Shown one piece after another: positions 7,711-58,357 of a stretch of DNA of 64,000 nt; within the stretch, counting starts at the first letter, position 1, and every line of letters begins with the position of its first letter. The DNA is from Liolophura sinensis (Eukaryota; Mollusca; Polyplacophora; Chitonida; Chitonidae), in NCBI RefSeq assembly GCF_032854445.1, contig NC_088297.1:12238163-12302162 (forward strand), in the 5' to 3' direction. The notes beneath the pieces are model-generated. The model was given only the letters and a program-made list of their open reading frames with translations, was not told the origin of the DNA and did not search any database. Both the position numbers and the translations under genes were made by a program.

Positions 7711-8204
7711 CAACAGTACTCGTCAGCCTACATCCACGAGGGGAACGGAAGTACATCCACCAGGAGAACGGACATCCATCAGGAGGACGGTGTAGTGCGC
7801 ATGACCACACATATGGCGCAAAGTCGTGGGATATAGTTACACATTTGTGTTCACTAAAAAGACATAGGCCTACGGATTATATCACTGTATATCTCATAAT
7901 ATTCACTTAAATTTTATTTACTACAGGGCTTCTCCAAATAATCGAACTATAGACAACAGATGATGAATAAGACAAGGTATCTTATAAATTATCGGTATAA
8001 ATTATCGAACTATCGAAGACAGATGATGAATAAGACAAGGTATTCTATATCATAATAACCCAACAGACCACGGCCTCTCCAGACCTATTGTCCCGACATG
8101 CGGTTCATAGGCCTGTAGGACTATACAATATACAGGTACTTGGCAAGACGGTTGTTTTCCACCGGCATCTATATAAAATGTGCCTAATTTACCTTCAAAA
8201 TAGA

Positions 8205-11200
8205 TATAAAGTACAACATCCATACGGAGGACGGTGGCTAATTTAACTTCCTGCAGGTATACAGTACAACATCCATGAGGAGGACGGTGGCTAATTTACC
8301 TTCCTGCAGGTATCAGGTACAACATCCACGAGGTGGACGGTGGCTAATTTACCTTCCTACTGTTATAAGGTACAACATCCACGAGGAGGACGGTGACTAA
8401 TTTACCTTTCTGCAGGTGTGATGTACAACATCCACGAGGAGGACGGTGGCTAATTTACCTTTCTGCAGGTGTGAAGTACAACATCCATGAGGAGGACGGT
8501 GGCTAATTTACCTTTCTGCAGGTGTAAAGTACAACATCCACGAGGAGGAAGGTGACTAATTTAACCTCCTGCAGGTGTAAAGTACAACATCCACGAGGAG
8601 GACGGTGACTAATTTACCTTTCTGCAGGTGTAAAGTACAACATCCACGAGAAGGACGGTGACTAATTTACCTTTCTGCAGGTGTAAAGTACAACATCCAA
8701 GAGAAGGACGGTGACTAATTTACCTTTCTGCAGGTGTAAAGTACAACATCCATGACGAGGACGTTGGCTAGTTTACTTTCCTATAGGTATAAAGTACATC
8801 ATCCATGAGGAGGACGGTGGCTAATTTACCTTCCTACAGGTATCAGGAACAACATCCACGAGGAGGACGGTGGGTAATTTACCTTCCTGCAGGTATAAAG
8901 TACAACACCCACGAGGAGGACGGGGACTAATTTACCTTCCTCCAGGTATCAGGAAAAACATCCACGAGGAGGACGGTGGATGCTTTACCTTCATATAGTT
9001 ATAAAGTACAACATCCACGAGGAAAACGGTGGCTAATTTACCTGCCTATAGGTATAAAGTACAACATCCACAAGGAAGACGGTGGCTAATTTACATCCCT
9101 ATATGTATAAAGTACAACATCCACGAGGAGGACGGTGGCTAATTTACCTTCCTGCAGGTATAAAGTACAATATCCACGAGGAGGACGCTTGCTAATTTAC
9201 CTTTCTCCAGGTATCAGGAACAACATCCACGAGGAGGACGGTGGTTGCTTTACCTTCCTATAGGTATATAGTATAACATCCACGAGGAGGACGGTGACTA
9301 ATTTATGTTCCTATAGGCATAAAGTACAACAACCACGAAGCGGACGGTGACTAATTTAACTTCCTGCAGGTGTAAAGTACAACATCCACGAGGAGGACGT
9401 TGACTAATTTACCTTTCTGCAGGTGTAAAGTACAACATCCACGAGAAGGACGGTGACTAATTTACCTTTCTGCAGGTGTAAAGTACAACATCCACGAGGA
9501 GGACGTTGGCTAGTTTACTTTCCTATAGGTATAAAGTACAACATCCATGAGGAGGACGGTGACTAAATTACCTTTCTGCAGGTGCAAAGTACAACATCCA
9601 CGAGGAGGACGGTGACTAATTTACCTTTCTGCAGGTGTAGAGTACAATATCCATGAGGAGGACGGTGGCTAATTTACCTTCTGCAGGTGTGAAGTACAAC
9701 ATCCATGAGGAGGACGGTGGCTAACTTACCTTTCTGCAGGTGTGAAGTACAACATCCACGAGGAGGACGGTGGCTAATTTACCTTTCTGCAGGTGTGAAG
9801 TACAACATCCATGAGGAGGACGGTGGCTAATTTACCTTTCTGCAGGTGTAAAGTACATCATCCACGAGGAGGACGGTGACTAATTTACCTTCCTGCAGGT
9901 GTAAAGTAAAACATCCACGAGGAGGACGGTGACTAATTTACCTTTCTGCAGGTGTAAAGTACAACATCCACGAGGAGGACGGTGACTAATTTATGTTTAT
10001 ATAGGCATAAGGTACAACAACCACGAAGCGGACGGTGACTGAGTTATGTTCCTGCAGGTATAAAGTACAACATCCACGAGGCTATAGCTATAAAGTACAA
10101 CATCCACGAGAAGGACCGTGGCTTATTTATCTTCCTACAGGTATAAAGTACAACATCCATGAGGAGGACGGTGGCTAATTTACCTTCTGCAGGTGTGAAG
10201 TACAACATCTATGAGGAGGACGGTGGCTAACTTACCTTTTTGCAGGTGTGAAGTACAACATCCACGAGGAGGACGGTGGCTAATTTACCTTTCTGCAGGT
10301 GTAAAGTACAACATCCATGAGGAGGACGGTGGCTAATTTACCTTTCTGCAGGTGTAAAGTACAACATCCACGAGGAGGACGGTGACTAATTTACCTTCCT
10401 GCAGGTGTAAAGTACAACATCCACGAGGAGGACGGTGACTAATTTACCTTTCTGCAGGTGTAAAGTACAACATCCACGAGAAGGACGGTGACTAATTTAC
10501 CTTTCTGCAGGTGTAAAGTACAACATCCACGAGGAGGACGGTGGCTAATTTAACTTCCTGCAGGTGTAAAGTACAACATCCACGAGGATGACGGTGGCTA
10601 ATTTATCTTCTGCAGGTGTGAAGTACAACATCTATGAGGAGGACGGTGGCTAGTTTACCTTTCTGCAGGTGTGAAGTACAACATCCATGAGGAGGACGGT
10701 GGCTAATTTACCTTTCTGCAGGTGTAAAGTACAACATCCACGAGGAGGACAGTGACTAATTTACCTTCCTGCAGGTGTAAAGTACAACATCCACGAGGAG
10801 GACGGTGACTAATTTACCTTTCTGCAGGTGTAAAGTACAACATCCACGAGGAGGACGGTGACTAATTTATTTTTCTGCAGGTGTAAAGTACAACATCCAC
10901 GAGGGGGACGGTGACTAATTTATGTTCATATAGGCATAAGGTACAACAACCACAAAGCCGACGGTGACTAATTTATGTTCCTGCAGGTATAAAGTACAAC
11001 ATCCACGAGGCTATAGCTATAAAGTACAACATCCACGAGGAGGACCGTGGCTAATTTACATCCATATAGGTATAAAGTACAACATCCACGAGGAGGACGT
11101 TGGCTACTTTACCTTCCTATAGCTATAAAGTACAACATCCACGAGAAGGACGGTTGCTAGTTTACCTTCCTATAGGTATCAGGTAGAACATCCACGAGGA

Positions 11201-11485
11201 GGACAGTGGCTAATTTATCTTCCTATAGGTATAAAGTACAACATCCACGAGGAGGACGGTGGCTAATTTACATCCATATAGGTATAAGGTACCACATCTA
11301 CGAGGAGGACGGTGGCTAATTTACATCCCTATAGGTTTAAAGTACAAAATCCATGAGGAGGACGGTGGCTAATTTACATTCCTGCAGGTATAAAGTACAA
11401 CATCCATACGGAGGACGGTGGTTAATTGACGTTCCTATAGGTATCAGGTACAAAATCCACGAGGAGGACGGTGACTAATTTACCA
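8205..11485 (+). repeat. 53-bp satellite array, left outer (about 62 units)
   Basis: The unit is about 53 bp with the core ATCCACGAGGAGGACGGTGG, followed by CTAATTTACCTTCCTGCAGG and TATAAAGTACAAC. Units differ from each other by a few bases, and higher-order blocks recur (for example runs ending TTTCTGCAGGTGTAAAG). Two places show a truncated unit (CACGAGGCTATAGCTATAAAG near 10080 and 11005). The array stops at a pyrimidine-rich CTTTTTCTCCGCAG at 11488-11501. Confidence 0.93.
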
Positions 11486-11501
11486 TCCTTTTTCTCCGCA
11501 G

Positions 11502-11588
11502 ATGGGAAAAGCCCAACACGAACGAAGACAAACCGAGTTTGCCTTTCTCTACATGTACGTAGATGAGAAAGTTTTCACAGAGCCTTAG
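11502..11588 (+). other. Small open frame after a strong acceptor-like site (28 codons)
   Basis: Directly after the satellite array, CTTTTTCTCCGCAG is followed by ATGGGAAAAGCCC and an open frame of 28 codons (MGKAQHERRQ to KVFTEP, TAG at 11586). Its mirror is 31233-31147 on the minus strand. It may be a terminal exon of a transcript running through the array, or chance. No homology is recognised. Confidence 0.25.
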
Positions 11589-11914
11589 AATATAATCCTC
11601 GAATCATCCAATATGAGAAATCCAGTGACCACCAATTCCGGACAGTTGAATAAAAAAGTCAACAACCACATTCTAGTTTAAATATATGTATTTTAAGGAG
11701 CCCTGTCGCAGTGCCATAACCCACCGCCCATGGAGAGTTTGCCAACAGAAACTCTAATTCAACAAGTTCCTTTCCCTAAAAATGGTTACAGCATTGTATT
11801 CATCCGGTTTGCAAAAACCTTTACAGAAAAACTATTATAAACTGAAGAACGCTTTACTGAGATGTACGGATAAAAGTTGTGTTTCATTACATATGCTGCA
11901 GTACCCTAGGCAAG

Positions 11915-11920
11915 TTTATT
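11915..11920 (-). terminator. Poly(A) signal AATAAA, left-arm gene
   Basis: TTTATT on the plus strand, about 200 bp beyond the stop at 12123; mirror of the signal at 30815. Confidence 0.45.
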
Positions 11921-12122
11921 AGTGTATTAACTCTCTTGTACATTCTAAGATTCTATACATGTGTAAGTGAAGCAATGAATGGTATGGAGGTGGAATGGAA
12001 AATACATTATAGGTGTAGGCTATATGTACAAGGCATATAGCCATGATACAATGATAACAATGATATAAAATACACATTGTCAACTCATCAGTCATCTATT
12101 ATTTACACACACAGCATGCCAT

Positions 12123-15100
12123 TTACGACTCGGTACTGCTGATTAAGCGGTGTGCTCTTAATTGTTCACTTTTTTTAAGTGCCGTGTGTAACGATGAATG
12201 TTCAGTTTGACAGCATCTTCGTCTTGCTTCTGGTAAAGATATGTGCAGTTTGTTGGATACAAGCAGTGCGACTACATCCCGAACCAAAGCTTCCTTACAT
12301 CTCCTATTCCTGACTGTCCCTTCGTACCTACAAAGAAAAAAATGTGAACAGAATGCAATCCTGTTAAAGGCTTCCTATTTCATTTGTAAAAGACTGAAAT
12401 CTGGAAATGTATATATATTGCTACTAATTAAACACATATGCCTTCACACTTTTTAGCAAGTCATGCGCGGAACAAAATTATGAAATTATAATGATAAATA
12501 ATTAAACACACATCTACATGTAAATGACTACTTGATGACTGCAATATTCTTAGTTACTTTCCTCCTTTTTTATGACTTTAGCCTTGTCAAATGTTTATAC
12601 ACATTTGAACTGTCTGTATATAGATAACTTGAAAGCTGGAAAGCCATTCCGATACTACTCCATTCATAACTGGAGCCAAAATAGCCATATCTAATTGTAC
12701 CAAAAAATAAAAACAGACAGATAAAACACAAGGTAAATACAAACCCATCCACATTTAAAATCTTCTGAATTCGCTCGGTTCCTGGTAGCTGGACTAGCTT
12801 GTGTACAAATCCAGATGTGGCGGGGCGCCTGAAGCAATGTTTCACACAAGAATATAATCACACAGTGAAAGATAATCATGGCCGATTTCCAATGCACATA
12901 TACAGACAAGGTATACAAAAGCATATGCAGATAAGTTGTGACAACAAACAAACAGAACATCCCAGATCTGTACTGTAACAAAAAACCCTTATAGGCATGA
13001 TTATTTGAAACGTGCATGGAGAAGACCGGGATTACTGGCAACCACCCTACCTACATGTACCTATACGTACTGTTTGTCCCTAAGCTTCAATTTGAAGAAC
13101 TTTTTTTCCACATAGGCTTCGAGATATGTATAAGCCTAAAAGAGAAAATCTTATTAAGTACCATACGCATACCCATTCGAAATAACACCCAGAATGGCCA
13201 TAATTTACTCACAAAACATTTACAAAATTCCAAAGTCTCGCAGCGTTGTTTTTGGTACGTAAAACATATATAAATATAGTAACACGGCTTTTTCCATACA
13301 AAGGGTATTTTCAGTACATATAAATCAAGCTAAGCGAAAAAGTCAATATCAATTTATAAACAATTTATACACCGAAATCACACTTTTACGTACCAAGTCC
13401 AAGACATAACCGAAAACAAAGCCCTTTAGAAATTCCCTTCTCGGATTTGTCAAGAAAATCTCCAGCTCAGAGCTCTCGGACCTAGATAAACACATAATCA
13501 TGTATACAGTTGTACGAGGAAGGGGTTAGGAGAAGCTATCAATATAACACAGTGAAACACTCTAAAACACTCGTTTTAGATACATAATAATATATCCCGG
13601 GCGATGAAGTGCATGAGGATCTTTATGAAATCACATGCTACCATCAAGTGTGGCTGTATGATGTGAAACAATACATTAAACTATATGTCATGTAACAAAT
13701 TAATTATTTGTATCGCAGCAACTATTCTTCAAATAGCAGCGAAATCTTTCGAGTTTGTGTGATATGAATGTACAGTGGTGCTGCACGCCACTATAGAAGA
13801 ATAGGGAAAGACAGAAATTATCATATGTTTAAAACTACTGTATATAGTCAAATACAAGGGTCAATTAAATACACTGTGTCTGTAAATTATAATTGCGCAG
13901 AAAAATGTGTAGGTATTCCTAAGCTAATTGTTGTTCACACCAGTCACTGTGCGAAACTCCAGAATGCGCCTACACATATGAGGAAATATAGAAAAATATG
14001 TAAAAGACAAAGAAAATAAATGAAGTGTACAGATTTAAGCTATACATACCACTTTGAACCTCTGTCTGTCAACAAGCCTTCCACATACTGGTCGATCACA
14101 TCAACCTGAAATATCAACATTATGCGGCATATATATATACAATCCAAACATTGTGTTTAAGTTGGTTAAAAATCCAAAAATTGTCAGACACAGTTTAATG
14201 GTATTTTTCTACTGATGCTGAATACTTGAGGCTCAGACCCACCTGTTATTTCTAAACAGTTTGAGTATATGCCTCAGTGTCACCTGGGGCCCTCATGGCT
14301 CAGTCGGTTAGCGCGCTAGCGCAGCGTAATGACCTAGGAGTCTCTCACCAATACGGTCGCTGTGAGTTCAAGTCCAGCTCATGCTGGCTTCCTCTCCGGC
14401 CGTACGTGGGAAGGTCTGCCAGCAACCTGCGGATGGTCGTGGGTTTCTCCCGGGCTCTGCCCGGTTTCCTCCCACCATAATGCTGGCCGCCGTCGTATAA
14501 GTGAAATATTCTTGAGTACGGCGTAAAACACCAATCAAATAAACAAATCAATGTCACCTGCATGACAACTGCTCCCTTATCCATACCTGTGAAATGACAT
14601 CAGATACACAAATAAACATGTTGGAATCCTGCTCCTCATTGTTGAGTTCCTCGTCCGCAGATGGAATAATCCTGGACACTTGTAAGTCTTCTGACGAAAA
14701 CCTACAGAAATCAAGACATCACAAAAGTTGTATCTTTCTTGAAAACATACGAGAAATGACTGCAACACTTATCAAAATCGACGCCCACATCGTTACACAT
14801 TCTAAAGCAAAACGTATCGGAAAGAATGTGTTCAAGACAAAGACCTTAACCCTAAGACATGCAACAATGTTCAGTCATGCCCAGCATTTGTCGCCTCAAG
14901 CACCACAATGCAGATATACACGAGTATAATATTCAATTCAGATTTGAAATGCATTTCCTTAATTAGTGTTCTCTTTGCGAATAATTATCCTTCAACATGA
15001 CGTGCAATGGAAATGCCGTGAAGAACTCTGTTCAGTTAGATGGCAAAGAACGGCACTTTTACCTACAAAAATAAACACGTCTTTTGAACATTGTGATAAT

Positions 15101-16458
15101 TTAGTTATCTATTTCAATGGTGTTTTACGCCTCAAAAACAGCTCAATTTACAGCCCATGTGATGGCGGTCAATTTTATGGACATATGTGCATGGACTGTA
15201 ATATATAGCGCAGACTTAAAGCCTAATTAGATTGCTCGCACAGTGAAGCCTTTGGAAAGAAGTTTAAACCCGTGCATAGCTGATCCAATTTCTTGTGTGA
15301 ATATATACAGTGTAATTTGACAAATAGATTATGAATCTGGCTTTGCTTTTGTTCTAGCTTAAGAAGTTTGACCACAATTTACCTACTGTTCATGCATTTG
15401 GCATAAATAGCTAACCACGAATGTGGCTTTGTTTTGGTTCTAAAGAAGTTTTCGCTTTTAGGCACACTTTATTCTGATATTTGAGACACGATGCGAAAAG
15501 CAGTAATGGTGCAATGCTGAAAGTTGGTCAGCAGGACAAATTGTGCTCTTCTCTCGTATCAAATTATTACAGATGAATAGTTTTCCAGTGATTGGCATTA
15601 AAATTTTTGCCACCGTTCATGCATTACGTAAGAAAAACATCTGTTGGCTTTCGAGTTACGGTTAGCGCAGCGGGAGCGTTCTTTACATTGTGTGGTATTA
15701 AAACATACACGCCAAATGACTAATCTGTTGGTCTAATAGAGAGAATATGTACACAAACACTACACAACTACTATTCACATGAGGCCATTGAGTAGAAGTT
15801 CTATTGCAGGCATAGATGATCTGATCTCTTTGTGTTACTTATTTTTTCCCTTGCAAATTAGACACTTGCATTTGCCCGACCGGAAGTTGATGGCATCTTT
15901 CTGTTTTACATCCATCTCCGGGGCCAATCACGAAAATAAGATCTGTAAGTTTAGATTGCTTTGATACCTATTTTACTCTGCCTCATCAGTGGAAGAATAT
16001 TTTAAATTGGCGTCACCTACAGAGCCGATAAATCTGCATATACGTCTGGATGACCACTAGGAGTATACATTTCGAAAAAAGATGTAGAAAATAATTTAAG
16101 AACATATCATCTCATTGACAGGGAATGTATCTATTTTTTTAACATGAAAAGTTAATCAAAAAGCTCGCCTATCATATAAAGCCGCAGACGATAACTATAT
16201 ATGTACACAGTATTTTAGATGAATGAAACGTATTGATGCTTAATTTTACGTGCCGTTTTGTCCCTCAACGCGTGCTTTCCAGTGTACAGCTCTTAAATGG
16301 TTCTCTACTTTCTTCTTCCTTGTTGGCTTGAACTTTGACGGTGGACATAACGGACAATGGAATGAAATATAGTCTCCTTTACAACAATCCTTGCAACTTT
16401 TTACACAACTTAACAATTCATCCACAGACTGAATCACGACAGGTTGGTGTGCTGTCAT
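12123..16458 (-). CDS. Unrecognised seven-exon gene, 273 residues, C2H2-like motif (left-arm copy)
   Basis: I do not recognise the family. Minus-strand exons: 16458-16250, 14701-14587, 14105-14050, 13481-13394, 13135-13071, 12828-12745 and 12327-12123, with all GT-AG borders and phases agreeing and a TAA at 12125-12123. Exon 1 has a Cys cluster (C18, C22, C25, C26) and a zinc-finger-like C35-x2-C38-x15-H54-x4-H59 in FHCPLCPPSKFKPT and VENHLRAVHW. Then come an acidic stretch (PSADEELNNEEQDSN), helical segments (EFLKGFVFGYVLDLAYTYLE) and a basic C-terminal third rich in Arg and Lys. This suggests nuclear DNA or RNA binding, but only as inference. It differs from the right copy by at least one residue (HKLVQL here, HKLAQL there). 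A SINE sits in intron 1. A poly(A) signal is at 11920-11915. Confidence 0.7.
14286..14551 (+). mobile_element. SINE family A inside left-arm gene intron 1
   Basis: A well-preserved, nearly full-length copy (GGGGCCCTCATGGCTCAGTC to CCAATCAAATAAACAAATC). The identical copy at 28184-28449 shows that the insertion predates the duplication of the arm. Confidence 0.93.
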
Positions 16459-16501
16459 TGTTACATTGAGGCGTCCAGAAATAAACTCGTCGGAAAAGTG
16501 G

Positions 16502-16517
16502 AAAGCTTTTATAAAAG
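16502..16517 (-). promoter_or_regulatory. Palindromic TATA-like box upstream of the arm gene (left)
   Basis: Mirror copy of the box at 26207-26222, identical in sequence and at the same distance from the left-arm gene start at 16458. Confidence 0.35.
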
Positions 16518-18759
16518 CTATGTACTACATTAGCCAAACTGCAAAGCTAACAAGTCACCCTGAGATAGTATTACTTCAGCAGACATGCGATGGGAAACTG
16601 TGTTTACAAACACACCGCCACCTCGGCTTTCCACGGTCCAGACACACGAAAGTTACCCATAAATTTGTTTTGTTTAGACATTGTGGCAAGTGATGCACGG
16701 AGGTATAAAAGTGTAGAAAGAGCAGGCCTATATACTGAATGTTCTTAGAAACTCCACGTTTTTAACTTTAACTGAAAATGTTTTATCTTATAATCGAATT
16801 AGAAAATCATTTATACTTCTATCAACATCGAGTTTTTCCAAATATTGTATTGTTTTGGCGTCCGAAAAACATAAACAAACTCGTACATGATAGAACTCGT
16901 TAATTTTTCTGGAAATAACTCTCCACCGTCGAATTCCAAGTAAATTGGGATTAGGAGACATGAAGATCATTCATGTGAGACAACATGTCCATATGAACAA
17001 AATAAAATAGTCCTACTTAATTTCTAAGATGAAGATATTGGTCCGAAGTACATTTTAAATTCTTCAACCATAACAAAAGTTATCACGACACTGCAGATAT
17101 GACTTTCAAGCACTATAGTAGGCCCAATGTGCTAGGTAGTACAAATGAAATGGTATTTGCTTGACATACTTCCTTTTCAGCCATCTCATGAGGATTTCAT
17201 TCATTGTATGAATAAAATCAAAGCGCTATTCAAAAAGCCCGACCCCAATTCATATTGTATTATACATGGATCTTCTGCTGCTTGGTTGTTGGGCAGGGAA
17301 AGGCAAATTTTAATGCGAATTGAGTTACATAATTACATTGACGGTATATTTACATACACCTGTATTGTTGCATACTTTTGCCTGTACACATATTTGTTAA
17401 GAAATATTTTGTGATGTGTGGATTTTTATGATTCTGATCATTTTTATTTTTTTAAAACTTAATAATAGTAGTAATAAATGCATCTTGCTTAGGTCAAAGA
17501 AAACAATTCTGGGTATGAGAAAGTTATAGCTGACAGATTTCCTTGACAAGGAGATAAGTCTGAATTCCTTTTTAAGTCTGAGGACTATAATGTCTTTCTA
17601 AAAATTCCACCGTGGTTTGCTGGGCTAGGATGTTATATACATTACGTTGTGAATAAACAAACCATGTGTCCTAAAGAGAGGGTGGCGTTAAACAATAATC
17701 AAATAAATAAATACATAAATAAAGCAAGCAACTTTATGGTAGCGCGACATATGAAAACCCTATAAGATGGAGACGCCTAATTTAGTTTCAAGTTAAATGT
17801 TTTCACTTAGAGAATTCAGGAGCAATAAAGCGGGCGATCACTTGTCCACCAGTGAAATCTGATATATGTGGATGTAAGCTTCTGCGGTATAACAAAATAA
17901 ACTGGGTCATGCATGAAAGTCAGAGGTCAGACACACAGAATTTAGACGCTTGAACCTTTCTCTGCCATAAGAGGAAATAATGTGTGGGGTGTGTTAAGAA
18001 GCAAACTCTGAAAAACTTACTTGATATCTTTGGCAAAATAAGCTTTCTTAAATATTCAATGTTTTTCGCACTTTACAAATTATGGTCTCAAGCTACATAT
18101 GTGCATTTTTTGGGTTATAAAAAAGGCTATACAACAGCAGCAAAGACCTTGTTTGTCCTTATCAAGGAACTGAGCGTAACAATTCGCCAGGCTTTATATC
18201 TCTGCAAGTTTTTATATACTAATTAAATGGCCATTGAACGTTAATTGACAACATGAGCGCTGTGAACAGCTATGCACAGGCAGAGATCAAAAGGGATTAC
18301 AACATTAAGCGTCAGAAGTTTACTGTACACAGAATAAAGCAATAATAATAATCATGTACATAAAACATATAACATTCCTAAGTAACAATAAACAACCTAT
18401 GGTTAATTACCACACAAGCGTGATTAGGCTGGCGAAGAGCTATTGTATAACTTATAGGACTTCCATTCAAATCGGGCTAATACTTAGTTTTAAAAAAGTT
18501 TCCTAAACATGTAACAAACCCTGGTATCCATCACCTTACATACATACTTATACATTATATGTTATATATATTTCTCAGAAATAAACAAGGCAACAGTCCT
18601 CCGCATATAGATTTTAGCTGTACCAAAACGACATATAACTTATCTATTGTCCTCATAAGTGTGTGTCAATCAATCAGTTAAATCTTTATTAGAAGTTAAT
18701 TTGGTAATCATCAATGTTGTACTGCATACCTGAAGGATGGAAAACTTTATACCTATAAA

Positions 18760-21095
18760 GGTTGAACTTTATACCTATAGGGAGGTAAATCAGCCACCGT
18801 CCTTCTCATGGATGTTGTACTCTATAGCTATAGGAAGGTAAACTGGTCACCGTCCTCCTCATGGATGTTGTACCTCATGCTTACATGGAGGTAAGTTAGC
18901 CACCGTCCTCCTCGTGGATGTTGTACCTTATACCTACATGGAGGTAAATTAGCCACCGTCCTCCTTATGGATGTTGTACCTTATACCTATATGAAGGTAA
19001 ATTAGCCACCGTCCTCCTCGTGGATGTTGTACTTTATACCAGTAGGAAGGTAAACTAGTCACCGTCCTCCTCGTGGATGTTGAACTTTATACCTATAGAA
19101 AGGTAAACTAGTCACCGTCCTCCTCGTGGATGTTGAATTTTATACATGTAGGAAGGTAAATTAGCCACCGTCCTCCTTATGGCTGTTGTACTTTATACCA
19201 GTAGGAAGGTAAATTAGGCACCGTCCTCCTCGTGGATGTTGTACCTGACACCTCCAGAAAGGTAAACTAGCCACCGTCCTCCTCGTGGATGTTGTACTTT
19301 ATACCAGTAGGAAGGTAAACTAGTCATCGTCCTCCTCGTGGATGTTGAAGTTTATACCTATAGAAAGGTAAACTAGTCACCGTCCTCCTCGTGGATGTTG
19401 TACTCTATACCTATAGGAAGGTAAACTGGTCACCGTCCTCCTCGTGGATGTTGAATTTTATACATGTAGGAAGGTAAATTAGCCACCGTCCTCCTCGTGG
19501 ATGTTATACTTTATACCAGTAGGAAGGTAAACTAGTCACCGTCCTCCTCGTGGATGTTGAACTTTATATCTATAGAAAGGTAAACTAGTCACCGTCCTCC
19601 TCGTGGATGTTGAATTTTATACATGTAGGAAGGTAAATTAGCCACCGTCCTCCTCGTGGATGTTGAACTTTATACCTATAGAAAGGTAAACTAGTCACCG
19701 TCCTCCTCGTGGATGTTGTACTTTATACCTATAAGAAGGTAAATCAGCCACCGTCCTCCTCGTGGATGTTGAACTTTATACCTATAGAAAGGTAAACTAG
19801 TCACCGTCCTCCTCGTGGATGTTGTACCTTATACCTACATGGAGGTAAATTAGCCACCGTCCTCCTTATGGATGTTGTACTTTATACCTATATGAAGGTA
19901 AACTAGCCACCGTCCTCCTCGTGGATGTTGTACTTTATAACTATATGAAGGTGAATTAGCCACCGTCCTCATCGTGGATGTTGTACCTTATACCTATGGG
20001 AAAGCAAATTAGCCACCGTCCTCCGCGTGGATGTTGTACCTCATGCCTACATGGAGGTAAGTTAGCCCCCGTCCTCCTCCTGGATGTTGTACCTTATACC
20101 TACATGGAGGTAAATTAGCCACCGTCCTCCTCGTGGATGTTGTACTTTATACCAGTAGGAAGGTAAATTAGGCACAGTCCTCCTCGTGGATGTTATACCT
20201 GACACCTCCAGAAAGGTAAACTAGCCAACGTTCCCTTCGTGGATGTTGTACTTTACACCTGAGGAAAGGTAAATTAGCCACCGTCCTCTTTGTGGATGTT
20301 GTACTTAAGACCTGCAGGAAGGTAAATTGGCCACCGTCCTCCTCATGGATGTTGTACTTTATACCTACATGAAGGTAAATTAGCCACCGTCCTCCTCGTG
20401 GATGTTGTACTTTATGGCTAAAGGAAGGTAAATTAGCCACCGTCCTCCTCGTGGATGTTGTACTTTATGGCTAAAGGAAGGTAAATTAGCCACCGTCCTC
20501 CTCGTGGATGTTGTACTTTATACCTATATGAAGGTAAATTAGCCACCGTCCACCTCGTGGATGTTGTACCTTATACCTACATGGAGGTAAATTAGCCACC
20601 GTCCTCCTCGTGGATGTTGTACCTTATACCTACATGGAGGTAAATTAGCCACCGTCCTCCTTATGGATGTACTTTATACCTATATGAAGGTAAATTAGCC
20701 ACCGTCCTCCTCATGGATGTTGTACCTGATACCTGCAGTAAGGTAAAGTAGCCACCGTCCTCCTCGTGGAGGTTCTACCTGATACCTATAGGAAGGTAAA
20801 CTAACAACCGTCCTCCTCGTGGATATTGTACTTTACGGCTATAGGAAGGTAAATTACCCACCGTCCTCCTCGTGGATGTTGTACTTTATACCTATATGAG
20901 GGTACATTAGCAACCGTCCTCCTCGTGGATGTTGTACCTTTTACCTGGAGGAAGGTAAATTAGCCACTGTCCTTCTTGTCGATGTTGTATCTTATGCCAG
21001 TAGGAAGGTAAATTAGCCACCGTCCTCCTCGTGGATGTTATACTTTATACCTATGGGGAGGTGAACTAGGCAAGGTCCTCCTCGTGGATCTTTAA
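18760..21095 (-). repeat. 53-bp satellite array, left inner (about 44 units, inverted)
   Basis: This is the same family as the outer array but on the opposite strand (CCACCGTCCTCCTCGTGGAT). It contains variant units with CCAGTAGGAAGG and TACATGGAGG segments that are rare in the outer array, so the two arrays have diverged in variant content. It is about one unit longer than its mirror on the right. Confidence 0.92.
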
Positions 21096-21689
21096 TATTT
21101 TTTCTTTAAGTTAGTGATGGAGGACTATTAGGTTACTAATTAACAATGACACATTAGAGAAGGTCTTCAGGGTTACAGTAATGTCTGTGTTTTCGGATAA
21201 TAAGGGGTTTAAAGTGTTGAGAATTTATCTGCTCGGCTATAGGCCTATATAAATATACAGGCCTATAGTCTCGTACCTTGCCCAATTATTCGTAAACGAA
21301 CAAGTTACTTGTTCCGTTCTGCTCATGGATGTCCGTTCTCCTCGTGGACGTTCTCCTCATGGATGGCGGCTGCCCAGTGCTACTCGGAGGAGTAGCACTG
21401 GGCAGCCGCCATCCATGAGGAGAACGTCCACGAGGAGAACGGACATCCATGAGCAGAACGGAACAAGTAACTTGTTCGTTTACGAATAATTGGGCAAGGT
21501 ACGAGACTATAGGCCTGTATATTTATATAGGCCTATAGCCGAGCAGATAAATTCTCAACACTTTAAACCCCTTATTATCCGAAAACACAGACATTACTGT
21601 AACCCTGAAGACCTTCTCTAATGTGTCATTGTTAATTAGTAACCTAATAGTCCTCCATCACTAACTTAAAGAAAAAATATTAAAGATCC

Positions 21690-23970: not shown

Positions 23971-24000
23971 AGGTATAAAGTTTTCCATCCTTCAGGTATG

Positions 24001-26206
24001 CAGTACAACATTGATGATTACCAAATTAACTTCTAATAAAGATTTAACTGATTGATTGACACACACTTATGAGGACAATAGATAAGTTATATGTCGTTTT
24101 GGTACAGCTAAAATCTATATGCGGAGGACTGTTGCCTTGTTTATTTCTGAGAAATATATATAACATATAATGTATAAGTATGTATGTAAGGTGATGGATA
24201 CCAGGGTTTGTTACATGTTTAGGAAACTTTTTAAAACTAAGTATTAGCCCGATTTGAATGGAAGTCCTATAAGTTATACAATAGCTCTTCGCCAGCCTAA
24301 TCACGCTTGTGTGGTAATTAACCATAGGTTGTTTATTGTTACTTAGGAATGTTATATGTTTTATGTACATGATTATTATTATTGCTTTATTCTGTGTACA
24401 GTAAACTTCTGACGCTTAATGTTGTAATCCCTTTTGATCTCTGCCTGTGCATAGCTGTTCACAGCGCTCATGTTGTCAATTAACGTTCAATGGCCATTTA
24501 ATTAGTATATAAAAACTTGCAGAGATATAAAGCCTGGCGAATTGTTACGCTCAGTTCCTTGATAAGGACAAACAAGGTCTTTGCTGCTGTTGTATAGCCT
24601 TATTTATAACCCAAAAAATACACATATGTAGCTTGAGACCATAATTTGTAAAGTGCGAAAAACATTGAATATTTAAGAAAGCTTATTTTGCCAAAGATAT
24701 CAAGTAAGTTTTTCAGAGTTTGCTTCTTAACACACCCCACACATTATTTCCTCTTATGGCAGAGAAAGGTTCAAGCGTCTAAATTCTGTGTGTCTGACCT
24801 CTGACTTTCATGCATGACCCAGTTTATTTTGTTATACCGCAGAAGCTTACATCCACATATATCAGATTTCACTGGTGGACAAGTGATCGCCCGCTTTATT
24901 GCTCCTGAATTCTCTAAGTGAAAACATTTAACTTGAAACTAAATTAGGCGTCTCCATCTTATAGGGTTTTCATATGTCGCGCTACCATAAAGTTACTTGC
25001 TTTATTTATGTATTTATTTATTTGATTATTGTTTAACGCCATCCTCTCTTTAGGACACATGGTTTGTTTATTCACAACGTAATGTATATAACATCCTAGC
25101 CCAGCAAACCACGGTGGAATTTTTAGAAAGACATTATAGTCCTCAGACTTAAAAAGGAATTCAGACTTATCTCCTTGTCAAGGAAATCTGTCAGCTATAA
25201 CTTTCTCATACCCAGAATTGTTTTCTTTGACCTAAGCAAGATGCATTTATTACTACTATTATTAAGTTTTAAAAAAATAAAAATGATCAGAATCATAAAA
25301 ATCCACACATCACAAAATATTTCTTAACAAATATGTGTACAGGCAAAAGTATGCAACAATACAGGTGTATGTAAATATACCGTCAATGTAATTATGTAAC
25401 TCAATTCGCATTAAAATTTGCCTTTCCCTGCCCAACAACCAAGCAGCAGAAGATCCATGTATAATACAATATGAATTGGGGTCGGGCTTTTTGAATAGCG
25501 CTTTGATTTTATTCATACAATGAATGAAATCCTCATGAAATGGCTGAAAAGGAAGTATGTCAAGCAAATACCATTTCATTTGTACTACCTAGCACATTGG
25601 GCCTACTATAGTGCTTGAAAGTCATATCTGCAGTGTCGTGATAACTTTTGTTATGGTTGAAGAATTTAAAATGTACTTCGGACCAATATCTTCATCTTAG
25701 AAATTAAGTAGGACTATTTTATTTTGTTCATATGGACATGTTGTCTCACATGAATGATCTTCATGTCTCCTAATCCCAATTTACTTGGAATTCGACGGTG
25801 GAGAGTTATTTCCAGAAAAATTAACGAGTTCTATCATGTACGAGTTTGTTTATGTTTTTCGGACGCCAAAACAATACAATATTTGGAAAAACTCGATGTT
25901 GATAGAAGTATAAATGATTTTCTAATTCGATTATAAGATAAAACATTTTCAGTTAAAGTTAAAAACGTGGAGTTTCTAAGAACATTCAGTATATAGGCCT
26001 GCTCTTTCTACACTTTTATACCTCCGTGCATCACTTGCCACAATGTCTAAACAAAACAAATTTATGGGTAACTTTCGTGTGTCTGGACCGTGGAAAGCCG
26101 AGGTGGCGGTGTGTTTGTAAACACAGTTTCCCATCGCATGTCTGCTGAAGTAATACTATCTCAGGGTGACTTGTTAGCTTTGCAGTTTGGCTAATGTAGT
26201 ACATAG
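24001..26206. other. Core of right arm between inner array and gene: no gene supported
   Basis: This is A+T-rich sequence with short open frames only. An old SINE-like fragment on the minus strand lies at about 25005-25230 (TTTGATTATTGTTTAACGCC start). A 60-codon open frame at 25754-25936 begins directly after an in-frame stop and lacks recognisable similarity. The mirror stretch 16518-18724 is equivalent. Confidence 0.5.
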
Positions 26207-26222
26207 CTTTTATAAAAGCTTT
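26207..26222 (+). promoter_or_regulatory. Palindromic TATA-like box upstream of the arm gene (right)
   Basis: AGCTTTTATAAAAGCT is a perfect 16-base palindrome containing TATAAAAG, centred about 50 bp before the ATG at 26266. The mirror copy lies at about 16502-16517. The distance fits a short 5' UTR. Assigned on motif and position only. Confidence 0.35.
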
Positions 26223-26265
26223 CCACTTTTCCGACGAGTTTATTTCTGGACGCCTCAATGTAACA

Positions 26266-29200
26266 ATGACAGCACACCAACCTGTCGTGATTCAGTCTGT
26301 GGATGAATTGTTAAGTTGTGTAAAAAGTTGCAAGGATTGTTGTAAAGGAGACTATATTTCATTCCATTGTCCGTTATGTCCACCGTCAAAGTTCAAGCCA
26401 ACAAGGAAGAAGAAAGTAGAGAACCATTTAAGAGCTGTACACTGGAAAGCACGCGTTGAGGGACAAAACGGCACGTAAAATTAAGCATTAATACGTTTCA
26501 TTCATCTAAAATACTGTGTACATATATAGTTATCGTCTGCGGCTTTATATGATAGGCGAGCTTTTTGATTAACTTTTCATGTTAAAAAAATAGATACATT
26601 CCCTGTCAATGAGATGATATGTTCTTAAATTATTTTCTACATCTTTTTTCGAAATGTATACTCCTAGTGGTCATCCAGACGTATATGCAGATTTATCGGC
26701 TCTGTAGGTGACGCCAATTTAAAATATTCTTCCACTGATGAGGCAGAGTAAAATAGGTATCAAAGCAATCTAAACTTACAGATCTTATTTTCGTGATTGG
26801 CCCCGGAGATGGATGTAAAACAGAAAGATGCCATCAACTTCCGGTCGGGCAAATGCAAGTGTCTAATTTGCAAGGGAAAAAATAAGTAACACAAAGAGAT
26901 CAGATCATCTATGCCTGCAATAGAACTTCTACTCAATGGCCTCATGTGAATAGTAGTTGTGTAGTGTTTGTGTACATATTCTCTCTATTAGACCAACAGA
27001 TTAGTCATTTGGCGTGTATGTTTTAATACCACACAATGTAAAGAACGCTCCCGCTGCGCTAACCGTAACTCGAAAGCCAACAGATGTTTTTCTTACGTAA
27101 TGCATGAACGGTGGCAAAAATTTTAATGCCAATCACTGGAAAACTATTCATCTGTAATAATTTGATACGAGAGAAGAGCACAATTTGTCCTGCTGACCAA
27201 CTTTCAGCATTGCACCATTACTGCTTTTCGCATCGTGTCTCAAATATCAGAATAAAGTGTGCCTAAAAGCGAAAACTTCTTTAGAACTAAAACAAAGCCA
27301 CATTCGTGGTTAGCTATTTATGCCAAATGCATGAACAGTAGGTAAATTGTGGTCAAACTTCTTAAGCTAGAACAAAGCTAGAACAAAAGCAAAGCCAGAT
27401 TCATAATCTATTTGTCAAATTACACTGTATATATTCACACAAGAAATTGGATCAGCTATGCACGGGTTTAAACTTCTTTCCAAAGGCTTCACTGTGCGAG
27501 CAATCTAATTAGGCTTTAAGTCTGCGCTATATATTACAGTCCATGCACATATGTCCATAAAATTGACCGCCATCACATGGGCTGTAAATTGAGCTGTTTT
27601 TGAGGCGTAAAACACCATTGAAATAGATAACTAAATTATCACAATGTTCAAAAGACGTGTTTATTTTTGTAGGTAAAAGTGCCGTTCTTTGCCATCTAAC
27701 TGAACAGAGTTCTTCACGGCATTTCCATTGCACGTCATGTTGAAGGATAATTATTCGCAAAGAGAACACTAATTAAGGAAATGCATTTCAAATCTGAATT
27801 GAATATTATACTCGTGTATATCTGCATTGTGGTGCTTGAGGCGACAAATGCTGGGCATGACTGAACATTGTTGCATGTCTTAGGGTTAAGGTCTTTGTCT
27901 TGAACACATTCTTTCCGATACGTTTTGCTTTAGAATGTGTAACGATGTGGGCGTCGATTTTGATAAGTGTTGCAGTCATTTCTCGTATGTTTTCAAGAAA
28001 GATACAACTTTTGTGATGTCTTGATTTCTGTAGGTTTTCGTCAGAAGACTTACAAGTGTCCAGGATTATTCCATCTGCGGACGAGGAACTCAACAATGAG
28101 GAGCAGGATTCCAACATGTTTATTTGTGTATCTGATGTCATTTCACAGGTATGGATAAGGGAGCAGTTGTCATGCAGGTGACATTGATTTGTTTATTTGA
28201 TTGGTGTTTTACGCCGTACTCAAGAATATTTCACTTATACGACGGCGGCCAGCATTATGGTGGGAGGAAACCGGGCAGAGCCCGGGAGAAACCCACGACC
28301 ATCCGCAGGTTGCTGGCAGACCTTCCCACGTACGGCCGGAGAGGAAGCCAGCATGAGCTGGACTTGAACTCACAGCGACCGTATTGGTGAGAGACTCCTA
28401 GGTCATTACGCTGCGCTAGCGCGCTAACCGACTGAGCCATGAGGGCCCCAGGTGACACTGAGGCATATACTCAAACTGTTTAGAAATAACAGGTGGGTCT
28501 GAGCCTCAAGTATTCAGCATCAGTAGAAAAATACCATTAAACTGTGTCTGACAATTTTTGGATTTTTAACCAACTTAAACACAATGTTTGGATTGTATAT
28601 ATATATGCCGCATAATGTTGATATTTCAGGTTGATGTGATCGACCAGTATGTGGAAGGCTTGTTGACAGACAGAGGTTCAAAGTGGTATGTATAGCTTAA
28701 ATCTGTACACTTCATTTATTTTCTTTGTCTTTTACATATTTTTCTATATTTCCTCATATGTGTAGGCGCATTCTGGAGTTTCGCACAGTGACTGGTGTGA
28801 ACAACAATTAGCTTAGGAATACCTACACATTTTTCTGCGCAATTATAATTTACAGACACAGTGTATTTAATTGACCCTTGTATTTGACTATATACAGTAG
28901 TTTTAAACATATGATAATTTCTGTCTTTCCCTATTCTTCTATAGTGGCGTGCAGCACCACTGTACATTCATATCACACAAACTCGAAAGATTTCGCTGCT
29001 ATTTGAAGAATAGTTGCTGCGATACAAATAATTAATTTGTTACATGACATATAGTTTAATGTATTGTTTCACATCATACAGCCACACTTGATGGTAGCAT
29101 GTGATTTCATAAAGATCCTCATGCACTTCATCGCCCGGGATATATTATTATGTATCTAAAACGAGTGTTTTAGAGTGTTTCACTGTGTTATATTGATAGC

Positions 29201-30612
29201 TTCTCCTAACCCCTTCCTCGTACAACTGTGTACATGATTATGTGTTTATCTAGGTCCGAGAGCTCTGAGCTGGAGATTTTCTTGACAAATCCGAGAAGGG
29301 AATTTCTAAAGGGCTTTGTTTTCGGTTATGTCTTGGACTTGGTACGTAAAAGTGTGATTTCGGTGTATAAATTGTTTATAAATTGATATTGACTTTTTCG
29401 CTTAGCTTGATTTATATGTACTGAAAATACCCTTTGTATGGAAAAAGCCGTGTTACTATATTTATATATGTTTTACGTACCAAAAACAACGCTGCGAGAC
29501 TTTGGAATTTTGTAAATGTTTTGTGAGTAAATTATGGCCATTCTGGGTGTTATTTCGAATGGGTATGCGTATGGTACTTAATAAGATTTTCTCTTTTAGG
29601 CTTATACATATCTCGAAGCCTATGTGGAAAAAAAGTTCTTCAAATTGAAGCTTAGGGACAAACGGTACGTATAGGTACATGTAGGTAGGGTGGTTGCCAG
29701 TAATCCCGGTCTTCTCCATGCACGTTTCAAATAATCATGCCTATAAGGGTTTTTTGTTACAGTACAGATCTGGGATGTTCTGTTTGTTTGTTGTCACAAC
29801 TTATCTGCATATGCTTTTGTATACCTTGTCTGTATATGTGCATTGGAAATAGGCCATGATTATCTTTCACTGTGTGATTATATTCTTGTGTGAAACATTG
29901 CTTCAGGCGCCCCGCCACATCTGGATTTGTACACAAGCTAGCCCAGCTACCAGGAACCGAGCGAATTCAGAAGATTTTAAATGTGGATGGGTTTGTATTT
30001 ACCTTGTGTTTTATCTGGCTGTTTTTATTTTTTGGTATAATTAGATATGGCTATTTTGGCTCCAGTTATGAATGGAGTAGTATCGGAATGGCTTTCCAGC
30101 TTTCAAGTTATCTATATACAGACAGTTCAAATGTGTATAAACATTTGACAAGGCTAAAGCCATAAAAAAGGAGGAAAGTAACTAAGAATATTGCAGTCAT
30201 CAAGTAGTCATTTACATGTAGATGTGTGTTTAATTATTTATCATTATAATTTCATAATTTTGTTCCGCGCATGACTTGCTAAAAAGTGTGAAGGCATATA
30301 TGTTTAATTAGTAGCAATATATATACATTTCCAGATTTCAGTCTTTTACAAATGAAATAGGAAGCCTTTAACAGGATTGCATTCTGTTCACATTTTTTTC
30401 TTTGTAGGTACGAAGGGACAGTCAGGAATAGGAGATGTAAGGAAGCTTTGGTTCGGGATGTAGTCGCACTGCTTGTATCCAACAAACTGCACATATCTTT
30501 ACCAGAAGCAAGACGAAGATGCTGTCAAACTGAACATTCATCGTTACACACGGCACTTAAAAAAAGTGAACAATTAAGAGCACACCGCTTAATCAGCAGT
30601 ACCGAGTCGTAA
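26266..30612 (+). CDS. Unrecognised seven-exon gene, 273 residues, C2H2-like motif (right-arm copy)
   Basis: Plus-strand exons: 26266-26474, 28034-28148, 28630-28685, 29254-29341, 29600-29664, 29907-29990 and 30408-30612. Total coding length is 822 nt including TAA, with phases consistent at all six introns; donors include GTAAAA, GTATGG and GTACGT. The start was chosen as the first ATG of the open frame, 55 bp after a TATA-like box. The open frame over seven small exons in both copies, with almost no difference, argues that it is a real gene rather than chance. It could be an element-encoded protein or a captured host gene; no transposase, recombinase or helicase motif was seen. The first donor (GTAAAA) is the weakest junction. 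Confidence 0.72.
28184..28449 (-). mobile_element. SINE family A inside right-arm gene intron 1
   Basis: Mirror of the copy at 14286-14551. Confidence 0.93.
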
Positions 30613-30814
30613 ATGGCATGCTGTGTGTGTAAATAATAGATGACTGATGAGTTGACAATGTGTATTTTATATCATTGTTATCATTGTATCATGGCTATAT
30701 GCCTTGTACATATAGCCTACACCTATAATGTATTTTCCATTCCACCTCCATACCATTCATTGCTTCACTTACACATGTATAGAATCTTAGAATGTACAAG
30801 AGAGTTAATACACT

Positions 30815-30820
30815 AATAAA
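30815..30820 (+). terminator. Poly(A) signal AATAAA, right-arm gene
   Basis: AATAAA about 200 bp after the stop codon at 30612. It is conserved at 11915-11920 (as TTTATT) in the mirror copy. Confidence 0.45.
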
Positions 30821-31244
30821 CTTGCCTAGGGTACTGCAGCATATGTAATGAAACACAACTTTTATCCGTACATCTCAGTAAAGCGTTCTTCAGTTTATAA
30901 TAGTTTTTCTGTAAAGGTTTTTGCAAACCGGATGAATACAATGCTGTAACCATTTTTAGGGAAAGGAACTTGTTGAATTAGAGTTTCTGTTGGCAAACTC
31001 TCCATGGGCGGTGGGTTATGGCACTGCGACAGGGCTCCTTAAAATACATATATTTAAACTAGAATGTGGTTGTTGACTTTTTTATTCAACTGTCCGGAAT
31101 TGGTGGTCACTGGATTTCTCATATTGGATGATTCGAGGATTATATTCTAAGGCTCTGTGAAAACTTTCTCATCTACGTACATGTAGAGAAAGGCAAACTC
31201 GGTTTGTCCTCGTTCGTGTTGGGCTTTTCCCATCTGCGGAGAAA

Positions 31245-34200
31245 AAGGATGGTAAATTAGTCACCGTCCTCCTCGTGGATTTTGTACCTGATACCTATAG
31301 GAACGTCAATTAACCACCGTCCTCCGTATTGATGTTGTACTTTATACCTGCAGGAATGTAAATTAGCCACCGTCCTCCTCATGGATTTTGTACTTTAAAC
31401 CTATAGGGATGTAAATTAGCCACCGTCCTCCTCGTGGATGTTGTACCTTATACCTACGGGGAGGTAAATCAGCCACCGTCCTCCTCATGGATGTTGTACT
31501 TTAAACCTATAGGGATGTAAATTAGCCACCGTCCTCCTCGTAGATGTGGTACCTTATACCTATATGGATGTAAATTAGCCACCGTCCTCCTCGTGGATGT
31601 TGTACTTTATACCTGTAGGAAGATAAATTAGCCACTGTCCTCCTCGTGGATGTTCTACCTGATACCTATAGGAAGGTAAACTAGCAACCGTCCTTCTCGT
31701 GGATGTTGTACTTTATAGCTATAGGAAGGTAAAGTAGCCAACGTCCTCCTCGTGGATGTTGTACTTTATACCTATATGGATGTAAATTAGCCACGGTCCT
31801 CCTCGTGGATGTTGTACTTTATAGCTATAGCCTCGTGGATGTTGTACTTTATACCTGCAGGAACATAAATTAGTCACCGTCGGCTTTGTGGTTGTTGTAC
31901 CTTATGCCTATATGAACATAAATTAGTCACCGTCCCCCTCGTGGATGTTGTACTTTACACCTGCAGAAAAATAAATTAGTCACCGTCCTCCTCGTGGATG
32001 TTGTACTTTACACCTGCAGAAAGGTAAATTAGTCACCGTCCTCCTCGTGGATGTTGTACTTTACACCTGCAGGAAGGTAAATTAGTCACTGTCCTCCTCG
32101 TGGATGTTGTACTTTACACCTGCAGAAAGGTAAATTAGCCACCGTCCTCCTCATGGATGTTGTACTTCACACCTGCAGAAAGGTAAACTAGCCACCGTCC
32201 TCCTCATAGATGTTGTACTTCACACCTGCAGAAGATAAATTAGCCACCGTCATCCTCGTGGATGTTGTACTTTACACCTGCAGGAAGTTAAATTAGCCAC
32301 CGTCCTCCTCGTGGATGTTGTACTTTACACCTGCAGAAAGGTAAATTAGTCACCGTCCTTCTCGTGGATGTTGTACTTTACACCTGCAGGAAGGTAAATT
32401 AGTCACCGTCCTCCTCGTGGATGTTGTACTTTACACCTGCAGAAAGGTAAATTAGCCACCGTCCTCCTCATGGATGTTGTACTTCACACCTGCAGAAAGG
32501 TAAATTAGCCACCGTCCTCCTCGTGGATGTTGTACTTCACACCTGCAAAAAGGTAAGTTAGCCACCGTCCTCCTCATAGATGTACTTCACACCTGCAGAA
32601 GGTAAATTAGCCACCGTCCTCCTCATGGATGTTGTACTTTATACCTGTAGGAAGATAAATAAGCCACGGTCCTTCTCGTGGATGTTGTACTTTATAGCTA
32701 TAGCCTCGTGGATGTTGTACTTTATACCTGCAGGAACATAACTCAGTCACCGTCCGCTTCGTGGTTGTTGTACCTTATGCCTATATGAACATAAATTAGT
32801 CACCGTCCTCCTCGTGGATATTGTACTTTATACCTGCAGAAAGGTAAATTAGTCACCGTCCTCCTCGTGGATGTTGTACTTTACACCTGCAGAAAGGTAA
32901 ATTAGTCACCGTCCTCCTCGTGGATGTTTTACTTTACACCTGCAGGAAGGTAAATTAGTCACCGTCCTCCTCGTGGATGATGTACTTTACACCTGCAGAA
33001 AGGTAAATTAGCCACCGTCCTCCTCATGGATGTTGTACTTCACACCTGCAGAAAGGTAAATTAGCCACCGTCCTCCTCGTGGATGTTGTACTTCACACCT
33101 GCAGAAAGGTAAGTTAGCCACCGTCCTTTTCATGGATGTTGTACTTCACACCTGCAGAAGGTAAATTAGCCACCGTCCTCCTCATGGATATTGTACTCTA
33201 CACCTGCAGAAAGGTAAATTAGTCACCGTCCTCCTCGTGGATGTTGTACTTTGCACCTGCAGAAAGGTAATTTAGTCACCGTCCTCCTCATGGATGTTGT
33301 ACTTTATACCTATAGGAAAGTAAACTAGCCAACGTCCTCCTCGTGGATGTTGTACTTTACACCTGCAGAAAGGTAAATTAGTCACCGTCCTTCTCGTGGA
33401 TGTTGTACTTTACACCTGCAGAAAGGTAAATTAGTCACCGTCCGCTTCGTGGTTGTTGTACTTTATGCCTATAGGAACATAAATTAGTCACCGTCCTCCT
33501 CGTGGATGTTATACTATATACCTATAGGAAGGTAAAGCAACCACCGTCCTCCTCGTGGATGTTGTTCCTGATACCTGGAGAAAGGTAAATTAGCAAGCGT
33601 CCTCCTCGTGGATATTGTACTTTATACCTGCAGGAAGGTAAATTAGCCACCGTCCTCCTCGTGGATGTTGTACTTTATACATATAGGGATGTAAATTAGC
33701 CACCGTCTTCCTTGTGGATGTTGTACTTTATACCTATAGGCAGGTAAATTAGCCACCGTTTTCCTCGTGGATGTTGTACTTTATAACTATATGAAGGTAA
33801 AGCATCCACCGTCCTCCTCGTGGATGTTTTTCCTGATACCTGGAGGAAGGTAAATTAGTCCCCGTCCTCCTCGTGGGTGTTGTACTTTATACCTGCAGGA
33901 AGGTAAATTACCCACCGTCCTCCTCGTGGATGTTGTTCCTGATACCTGTAGGAAGGTAAATTAGCCACCGTCCTCCTCATGGATGATGTACTTTATACCT
34001 ATAGGAAAGTAAACTAGCCAACGTCCTCGTCATGGATGTTGTACTTTACACCTGCAGAAAGGTAAATTAGTCACCGTCCTTCTCTTGGATGTTGTACTTT
34101 ACACCTGCAGAAAGGTAAATTAGTCACCGTCCTTCTCGTGGATGTTGTACTTTACACCTGCAGAAAGGTAAATTAGTCACCGTCCTCCTCGTGGATGTTG

Positions 34201-34590
34201 TACTTTACACCTGCAGGAGGTTAAATTAGTCACCTTCCTCCTCGTGGATGTTGTACTTTACACCTGCAGAAAGGTAAATTAGCCACCGTCCTCCTCATGG
34301 ATGTTGTACTTCACACCTGCAGAAAGGTAAATTAGCCACCGTCCTCCTCGTGGATGTTGTACATCACACCTGCAGAAAGGTAAATTAGTCACCGTCCTCC
34401 TCGTGGATGTTGTACCTTATAACAGTAGGAAGGTAAATTAGCCACCGTCCACCTCGTGGATGTTGTACCTGATACCTGCAGGAAGGTAAATTAGCCACCG
34501 TCCTCCTCATGGATGTTGTACTGTATACCTGCAGGAAGTTAAATTAGCCACCGTCCTCCGTATGGATGTTGTACTTTATATCTATTTTGA
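31245..34590 (-). repeat. 53-bp satellite array, right outer (about 63 units)
   Basis: This is the mirror of 8205-11485 with the same order of variant units and truncated units near 31805-31850 and 32700. It is about one unit longer than the left array. Confidence 0.92.
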
Positions 34591-35808
34591 AGGTAAATTA
34601 GGCACATTTTATATAGATGCCGGTGGAAAACAACCGTCTTGCCAAGTACCTGTATATTGTATAGTCCTACAGGCCTATGAACCGCATGTCGGGACAATGG
34701 GTCTGGAGAGGCCGTGGTCTGTTGGGTTATTATGATATAGAATACCTTGTCTTATTCATCATCTGTCTTCGATAGTTCGATAATTTATACCGATAATTTA
34801 TAAGATACCTTGTCTTATTCATCATCTGTTGTCTATAGTTCGATTATTTGGAGAAGCCCTGTAGTAAATAAAATTTAAGTGAATAGTATGAGATATACAG
34901 TGATATAATCCGTAGGCCTATGTCTTTTTAGTGAACACAAATGTGTAACTATATCCCACTACTTTACATTTCGCGCCATATGTGTGGTCATGCGCACTAC
35001 ACCGTCCTCCTGATGGATGTCCGTTCTCCTGGTGGATGTACTTCCGTTCCCCTCGTGGATGTAGGCTGACGAGTACTGTTGACTCCTCCCGCCCGCCAAT
35101 CTTATTGTAAAGTTACAAGTGGCTGACTCGTACCTTGTGATAGCCGACGAGTACTGTTGGTCAATCCGTGACTGGTGTGTCAACAAACTCCGCACTGCCC
35201 TGTCTGACAAATTTGAACATCCTTCGGGAAAGCCGGGTTCAATCCTCATAAGGGCCATTTTAAAGGTAGATAAAAGTATACATCTTTTTACATTTTTTGT
35301 GATAAAGATTTCACTGTCGTTTAAAGCTCAAGATTACCTTTTTTTCTTAACTGAGAAAACACGTTTGAGAGGGAGACACGCCTACCCTGATACATTATTT
35401 GCAAATCTTTAAAAAGTAAAAACTATAGGGTTGGCTTGTCCTTATGAAGCAAAATGAAGTAATTATTGTCAACTGTAAAATTTTTTAAAAATATTTCTTC
35501 TGTGAGAAAATATGAGAAACGCCGTCTTATTAATTTGTTCCTCTTTTAAGACGTAGGGTTACATGTACCTAGGGCCTACAGCCTAGCTCTATATACCTCT
35601 ACACCTTCGCTAATATTTATTTTTTTATTTATTTGAAAAACCACATAAACCTTCACTACCCCCATTTCTACTCGAATAAACCATAATGTATGGTCGTCGT
35701 GTATGGATCACCATCTAGAATTGGAAATGATTTATTTAGTGTATTTGCATGATAATTACTCGAAACTTTGGCAGTATGTTTTGGGGATCGTTTACTTGTC
35801 GGTGTGTT

Positions 35809-36844: not shown

Positions 36845-58357
<21,513 letters not shown>

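Follow-up and report, generated by a model that had tools for sequence, protein, structure and literature searches.

How does a genome come to carry a 27.4 kb near-perfect palindrome whose arms both begin and end in satellite arrays? The question is raised by positions 7711-35081 of a 64,000-nucleotide stretch from the chiton Liolophura sinensis (RefSeq assembly GCF_032854445.1, contig NC_088297.1, positions 12,238,163 to 12,302,162 of the forward strand; the whole stretch is referred to here as the window). An earlier note, made from the sequence alone, had taken this structure for a single large mobile element present twice, tail to tail, a reading that is upheld by comparison with other copies in the genome. 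The palindrome is very probably a pair of large DNA transposons from one family, the second having inserted onto an end of its predecessor. This family is of the foldback type; its satellite ends are unusually long, and the group to which its transposase belongs is identified.

The homology of the two arms, designated W1 (left) and W2 (right), ends exactly at 7711 and 35081, and the arms enclose a spacer of four bases (Table 1). In agreement with the earlier note, the four arrays of a 53-bp unit are oriented plus, minus, plus, minus along the palindrome, and the two termini of an arm are related, since the outer ('out') terminus CAACAGTACTCGTCAGCC and the central ('inn') terminus GAGTAGCACTGGGCAGCC are identical at 12 of their 18 outer bases (compared by eye). 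Inward of each terminus are repeats of a motif resembling ATCCAYGAGGAGAACGG. With gaps excluded, the arms agree at 7254 of 7270 positions in the core, 3178 of 3233 in the 5' arrays, 2258 of 2276 in the 3' arrays and 296 of 296 at the inner ends.

A search of the 609 Mb assembly with a 40-base piece of the unit, allowing at most 3 mismatches, returned 3,952 matches (2,160 forward, 1,792 reverse), against 0 for the same pattern read backwards. All 10 loci outside the window found among the 100 exact places listed for these matches were compared, that is, copies A to H, I1, I2 and J, together with W1 and W2. Paired arrays, plus then minus, occur at 10 of 10 loci among the matches listed, and each of the 13 copies, read from its out side, has a plus array followed by a minus array, the longest reaching 10.5 kb (copy J). 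Single copies end in the outer terminus of the window palindrome on one side and in its central terminus on the other, and identical 8-bp target duplications are found on both sides of 8 of the 11 outside copies (B, C, E, F, G, H, J and I1; 6.6 to 25.8 kb). Single copies with inverted arrays and flanking duplications, which the earlier note had named as support for a mobile element, are thus present in the genome. Furthermore, the family has probably been active recently, because W1 and its nearest relative among the copies compared, copy B on another scaffold, differ at just 6 of 7,269 core bases.

The bases flanking the palindrome suggest an order of events. W1 would have inserted first, at CTCCCGCC, and W2 would later have inserted across the junction between the last four bases of W1 and the W1 duplication, with inn end facing inn end. 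An insertion spanning the W1 end (ACTC) and the start of the duplication (CTCC) predicts ACTC, CTCC and CGCC, in that order, after W2, and the observed sequence ACTCCTCCCGCC matches at 12 of 12 bases. When W1, W2 and copy B (C1:37.07 Mb) are aligned together, 98 events are peculiar to W2, 4 to W1 and 10 to B, so that W1 resembles copy B, which lies on another scaffold, more closely than it does the opposite arm of its own palindrome. At the 16 core substitutions between the arms, W2 has the majority state of the other copies at 11 and W1 at 5, a polarity that fits different source copies for W1 and W2 but would be no proof alone. Judged from sequence, the flanking bases are stronger evidence for two insertions than the differences between the arms. 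Gene conversion, which had been considered as the cause of the likeness of the arms, was dropped as unneeded once copy B had been found.

The same relationship is illustrated by a second palindrome, at locus I (C1:16.81-16.84 Mb), in which the two copies, I1 and I2, are unlike (16,196 and 8,501 bp, with a best shared block of 2.6 kb at 87%). The sequence GGGCAGCC lies on either side of I1, and the right-hand GGGCAGCC constitutes bases 11-18 of the I2 inn terminus; I1 therefore inserted into the end of I2.

It is improbable that, instead, a single copy inserted and was then duplicated in inverted orientation through a template switch, a hairpin or a sister-chromatid event, with copy B deriving later from the left arm. 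The likeness of the arm cores (99.8%) and the identity of the inner 296 bases speak for such an event, and the 11-to-5 polarity is compatible with it. However, the 12 bases of the right flank are those expected of a second insertion that generated an 8-bp duplication of its own, W1 and B have 98 states in common against W2, and the palindrome at locus I unites unlike copies. Near-perfect palindromes are also a classic assembly artefact, and a fold-back read or a false inverted join might be suspected here from the near-perfection of the arms and from the unexpected orientation of the 4-bp spacer. This is less probable still, given that the outer flanks fit two insertions and that the arms of the second palindrome are unlike; in addition, the window palindrome is not a single read or contig copied twice, because its arms differ by 102 events (98 in W2 alone and 4 in W1 alone, relative to copy B). 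A local segmental duplication, although compatible with the window taken alone, is almost certainly wrong, being refuted by the unit, termini and paired arrays at 10 further loci and by the 8-bp duplications of 8 of 11 copies.

Within the transposon family to which the two nested insertions are assigned, the longer copies carry a multi-exon gene whose relatives, a group of DDE transposases, have a cluster of cysteines termed CxC4. The multi-exon gene that the earlier note had seen in the core is present, its exons matching the predicted Liolophura sinensis proteins P0001 and P0002, but it is the internally deleted remnant of a transposase gene whose conserved exons are found in longer copies. 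In fact, the fish relatives P0003 and P0004 match 4 of the 13 copies (C, E, G and J) and not W1, W2 or B (E<=1e-3). W1 and W2 are deletion derivatives without the conserved transposase exons, and their transposase would have been supplied in trans by longer copies. The transposase of the family has the RNase H-like catalytic fold with D, D and E of DDE transposases. The KDZ-associated CxC4 cluster (PF18717) is matched by 46 of 46 fish relatives (E<=1; best 5.8e-19), and exon 3 of the chiton gene can be aligned with these proteins across part of the CxC4 region, while alone it has no Pfam match. An Ulp1-type peptidase is also found in 9 of the 46 aligned fish relatives.

Searches with other models returned little. 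Six chiton pieces gave no Pfam P-type or THAP match, although the same pieces match almost nothing in Pfam; a PDB search by sequence gave none, Rfam 0 matches and NCBIfam noise only. The KDZ catalytic domain is not among the best 25 of the 43 Pfam families matched by the 46 fish relatives, and hence occurs in at most one of them. A host gene in the core was considered from a weak Pfam match, to Intu_longin_3 (E 0.076), of an exon near 17178-17345, and was rejected, as this stretch belongs to the element and is found in copy C too. The fish proteins P0003-P0122, some of which are labelled HMG domain-containing protein 3-like, resemble a large transposase family. Predicted genes such as LOC135464211 are suggested to be transposon remnants.

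The termini and the satellite are linked by a motif of roughly 17-20 bases, which is present in three copies at each terminus and also inside the 53-bp unit. Across 1,509 units from the 13 copies, the best conserved of the 53 possible 20-base segments starts at position 8 (0.950; worst 0.835), which is the site of the terminal motif, and unit positions 11-30 show a mean conservation of 0.948 versus 0.871 for the remainder. This pattern is as would be expected from selection on a predicted binding site. The transposase may bind the motif at both termini and in the most conserved part of the unit, the arrays being amplified putative binding sites; sites for the transposase could in this way turn into dispersed satellite DNA, which is open to test. 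The end repeats of Galileo and Tetris, described below, are precedents for such a role.

More tentatively, and with rather less than even probability, the transposase homes to terminus-like sequence in a fixed head-to-head orientation and the family builds long palindromes itself. Both palindromes are joined inn to inn, with the second insertion lying within 18 bases of an inn terminus. The non-element sequence considered at 11 loci, 121,181 bases in all, contains the 8-mer ACTCGTAC/GTACGAGT (either strand) 4 times, a total at about chance level, and all 4 occurrences lie 34-45 bp outside an element end (in the flanks of copies B, C and I, and at window position 35126); at 7 of the 11 loci it is absent at this distance. 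Six bases of ACTCGTAC are found in the out terminus. The 8-mer was chosen after viewing the data, and with ~33,000 possible 8-mers the corrected chance of this placement, estimated by hand, is ~1e-4. A preference of the transposase for end-like targets is suggested by the placement of ACTCGTAC together with the two palindromes that arose by insertion at an inn end. A 14-base exact copy of out-terminus sequence, CAACAGTACTCGTC, is also present at window positions 35146-35159, 65-78 bp outside W2, and may be either a remnant or a target that resembles an end. That new copies insert onto the ends of existing ones is a testable way for large palindromes to form, and such palindromes are known to seed rearrangement.

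Several observations weigh against the reading of the palindrome as two transposon insertions. The sample is small, with 10 loci outside the window, one of them palindromic. Copy A has no matching duplication and shows out-type sequence on both sides (C1:23.63 Mb), and is likely a recombinant; the left 8-mer of copy D is not repeated, its ends being altered and its inn side finishing TACTC (read by eye); copy I2 is without its outer 10 bases; and the duplications of W1 and W2 are explained only if the insertions are nested. The 11-to-5 core polarity, taken alone, would also be compatible with an inverted duplication after which B was copied from W1. The spacer reads GGAG, whereas two insertions predict CTCC, its reverse complement; the four bases may have been inverted at the unstable centre of the palindrome, for instance through recombination or hairpin repair involving the near-identical arms. 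No intact source copy is seen among the copies compared, because copy J, which has the catalytic exon, contains one in-frame stop in it. The KDZ catalytic domain (PF18758) is unmatched at E<=1 in the six chiton pieces and in P0003 and P0004, and for this reason the element is not filed as KDZ. In a Foldseek search with a fish model, no PDB entry matched below E 0.03, and SENP proteases ranked first. Finally, homogenisation of the arrays, rather than binding, may yield the same conservation within the unit.

Table 1. Positions in the window of the two element copies, their parts and their flanking bases.
Feature	Positions	Strand	Remarks
Left target duplication of W1, CTCCCGCC	7703..7710	.	
Element copy W1 (out end to inn end)	7711..21385	+	13,675 bp; termini are those of single copies elsewhere
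W1 out terminus, CAACAGTACTCGTCAGCC, and three copies of the motif common with the satellite unit	7711..7800	+	
W1 out-side 53-bp satellite array	8180..11489	+	61 units counted
W1 internally deleted transposase gene, without conserved transposase exons	12123..16458	-	mirrored in W2; tblastn with P0001 and P0002, limits trimmed by eye
W1 gene exons (about)	16458-16250, 14703-14587, 14105-14049, 13480-13394, 13135-13070, 12830-12742, 12326-12123		first exon Cys/His-rich, read by eye
SINE-like insertion in core	14285..14548	+	present in both arms; matches window copies at 301-555, 3356-3611, 63300-63494
W1 inn-side 53-bp satellite array	18761..21089	-	44 units counted
W1 inn terminus, GAGTAGCACTGGGCAGCC, and three motif copies	21318..21385	-	
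Central spacer, GGAG	21386..21389	.	4 bp, between inn ends of W1 and W2
Element copy W2 (inn end to out end)	21390..35081	-	13,692 bp; W1 termini in reverse
W2 inn-side 53-bp satellite array	21683..23964	+	43 units counted
W2 out-side 53-bp satellite array	31246..34605	-	62 units counted
Right flank, ACTCCTCCCGCC	35082..35093	.	W2 target duplication ACTCCTCC (last 4 bases of W1 and first 4 of the W1 duplication), then rest of second W1 duplication

The insertion in the core, which resembles a short interspersed nuclear element (SINE), belongs to a repeat with several copies in the window, at the places given in Table 1 and at others. Arrays of a 40-bp unit, 90% alike and each following a partial SINE-like repeat, lie at 44264-44909 and 46555-47101 and flank an open reading frame (45479-45961) that looks gag-like and has no Pfam match. 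This frame lies within the stretch of a retroelement in several broken frames (45479-49669) with Pfam reverse transcriptase, RNase H and integrase matches. Further tandem arrays are present at 1828-2302 (86-base unit), 38154-39188 (74-base unit) and 54198-54399 (44-base unit).

In the open-access literature searched (titles and starts of abstracts), there was no description of satellite-ended KDZ elements among the papers listed; HMGXB3 with transposase gave only pogo-like elements, the Liolophura sinensis genome with transposable elements gave nothing, and foldback or TU elements and head-to-head P insertions gave nothing decisive. The TU elements of sea urchin have long inverted ends of short tandem repeats (unit about 15 bp) and 8-bp duplications, and we know of no transposase for them. 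The likeness to fold-back transposons of Drosophila that the earlier note had drawn holds for the architecture; the transposase appears to be of another group.

The following comparisons draw on excerpts of the cited reports. Galileo, a Drosophila element of the P superfamily, has terminal inverted repeats (TIRs) some 0.3-1.2 kb long that contain two or three repeats, as well as 7-bp duplications, and additional transposase sites have been reported or proposed within its internal tandem repeats (PMC3573991). It resembles the chiton family in its long inverted ends with tandem repeats, its range from nearly complete copies to deletion derivatives and its chimeras without matching duplications (PMC3573991), and differs from it in that the chiton arrays extend to 10.5 kb, the duplications beside chiton copies measure 8 bp and the chiton transposase appears to fall in a different group. 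For Zisupton and a Dileera element 8-bp duplications are described, compared with 7 bp for Kyakuja (PMC12730594), and KDZ transposase genes are multi-exon, with the catalytic domain PF18758 (PMC9297572). The 8-bp duplications and the multi-exon transposase gene recall these elements, as do, in the fish relatives, CxC clusters named for KDZ, whereas the KDZ catalytic model is unmatched in the chiton element and the KDZ descriptions considered here contain no satellite TIR. The HINE Helentrons of oyster also bear satellite-like arrays on a mollusc mobile element, but these comprise one central array on an element of rolling-circle type without target duplication (PMC7492417), which is at odds with the duplications of the chiton copies.

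Tetris of Drosophila virilis is a foldback element in which the tandem repeats of the TIRs have a 37-bp stretch in common with its outer domain and act as seeds of satellite arrays (PMC4079207). Its complete copies have duplications of 8-9 bp, and the excerpted report gives no transposase-coding copy (PMC4079207); in the chiton the duplications are of 8 bp and the long copies carry transposase exons. Some foldback elements, such as Tetris, have been without an identified transposase, and the chiton family joins the foldback plan to a transposase gene, in a group represented here mainly by uncharacterised fish proteins.
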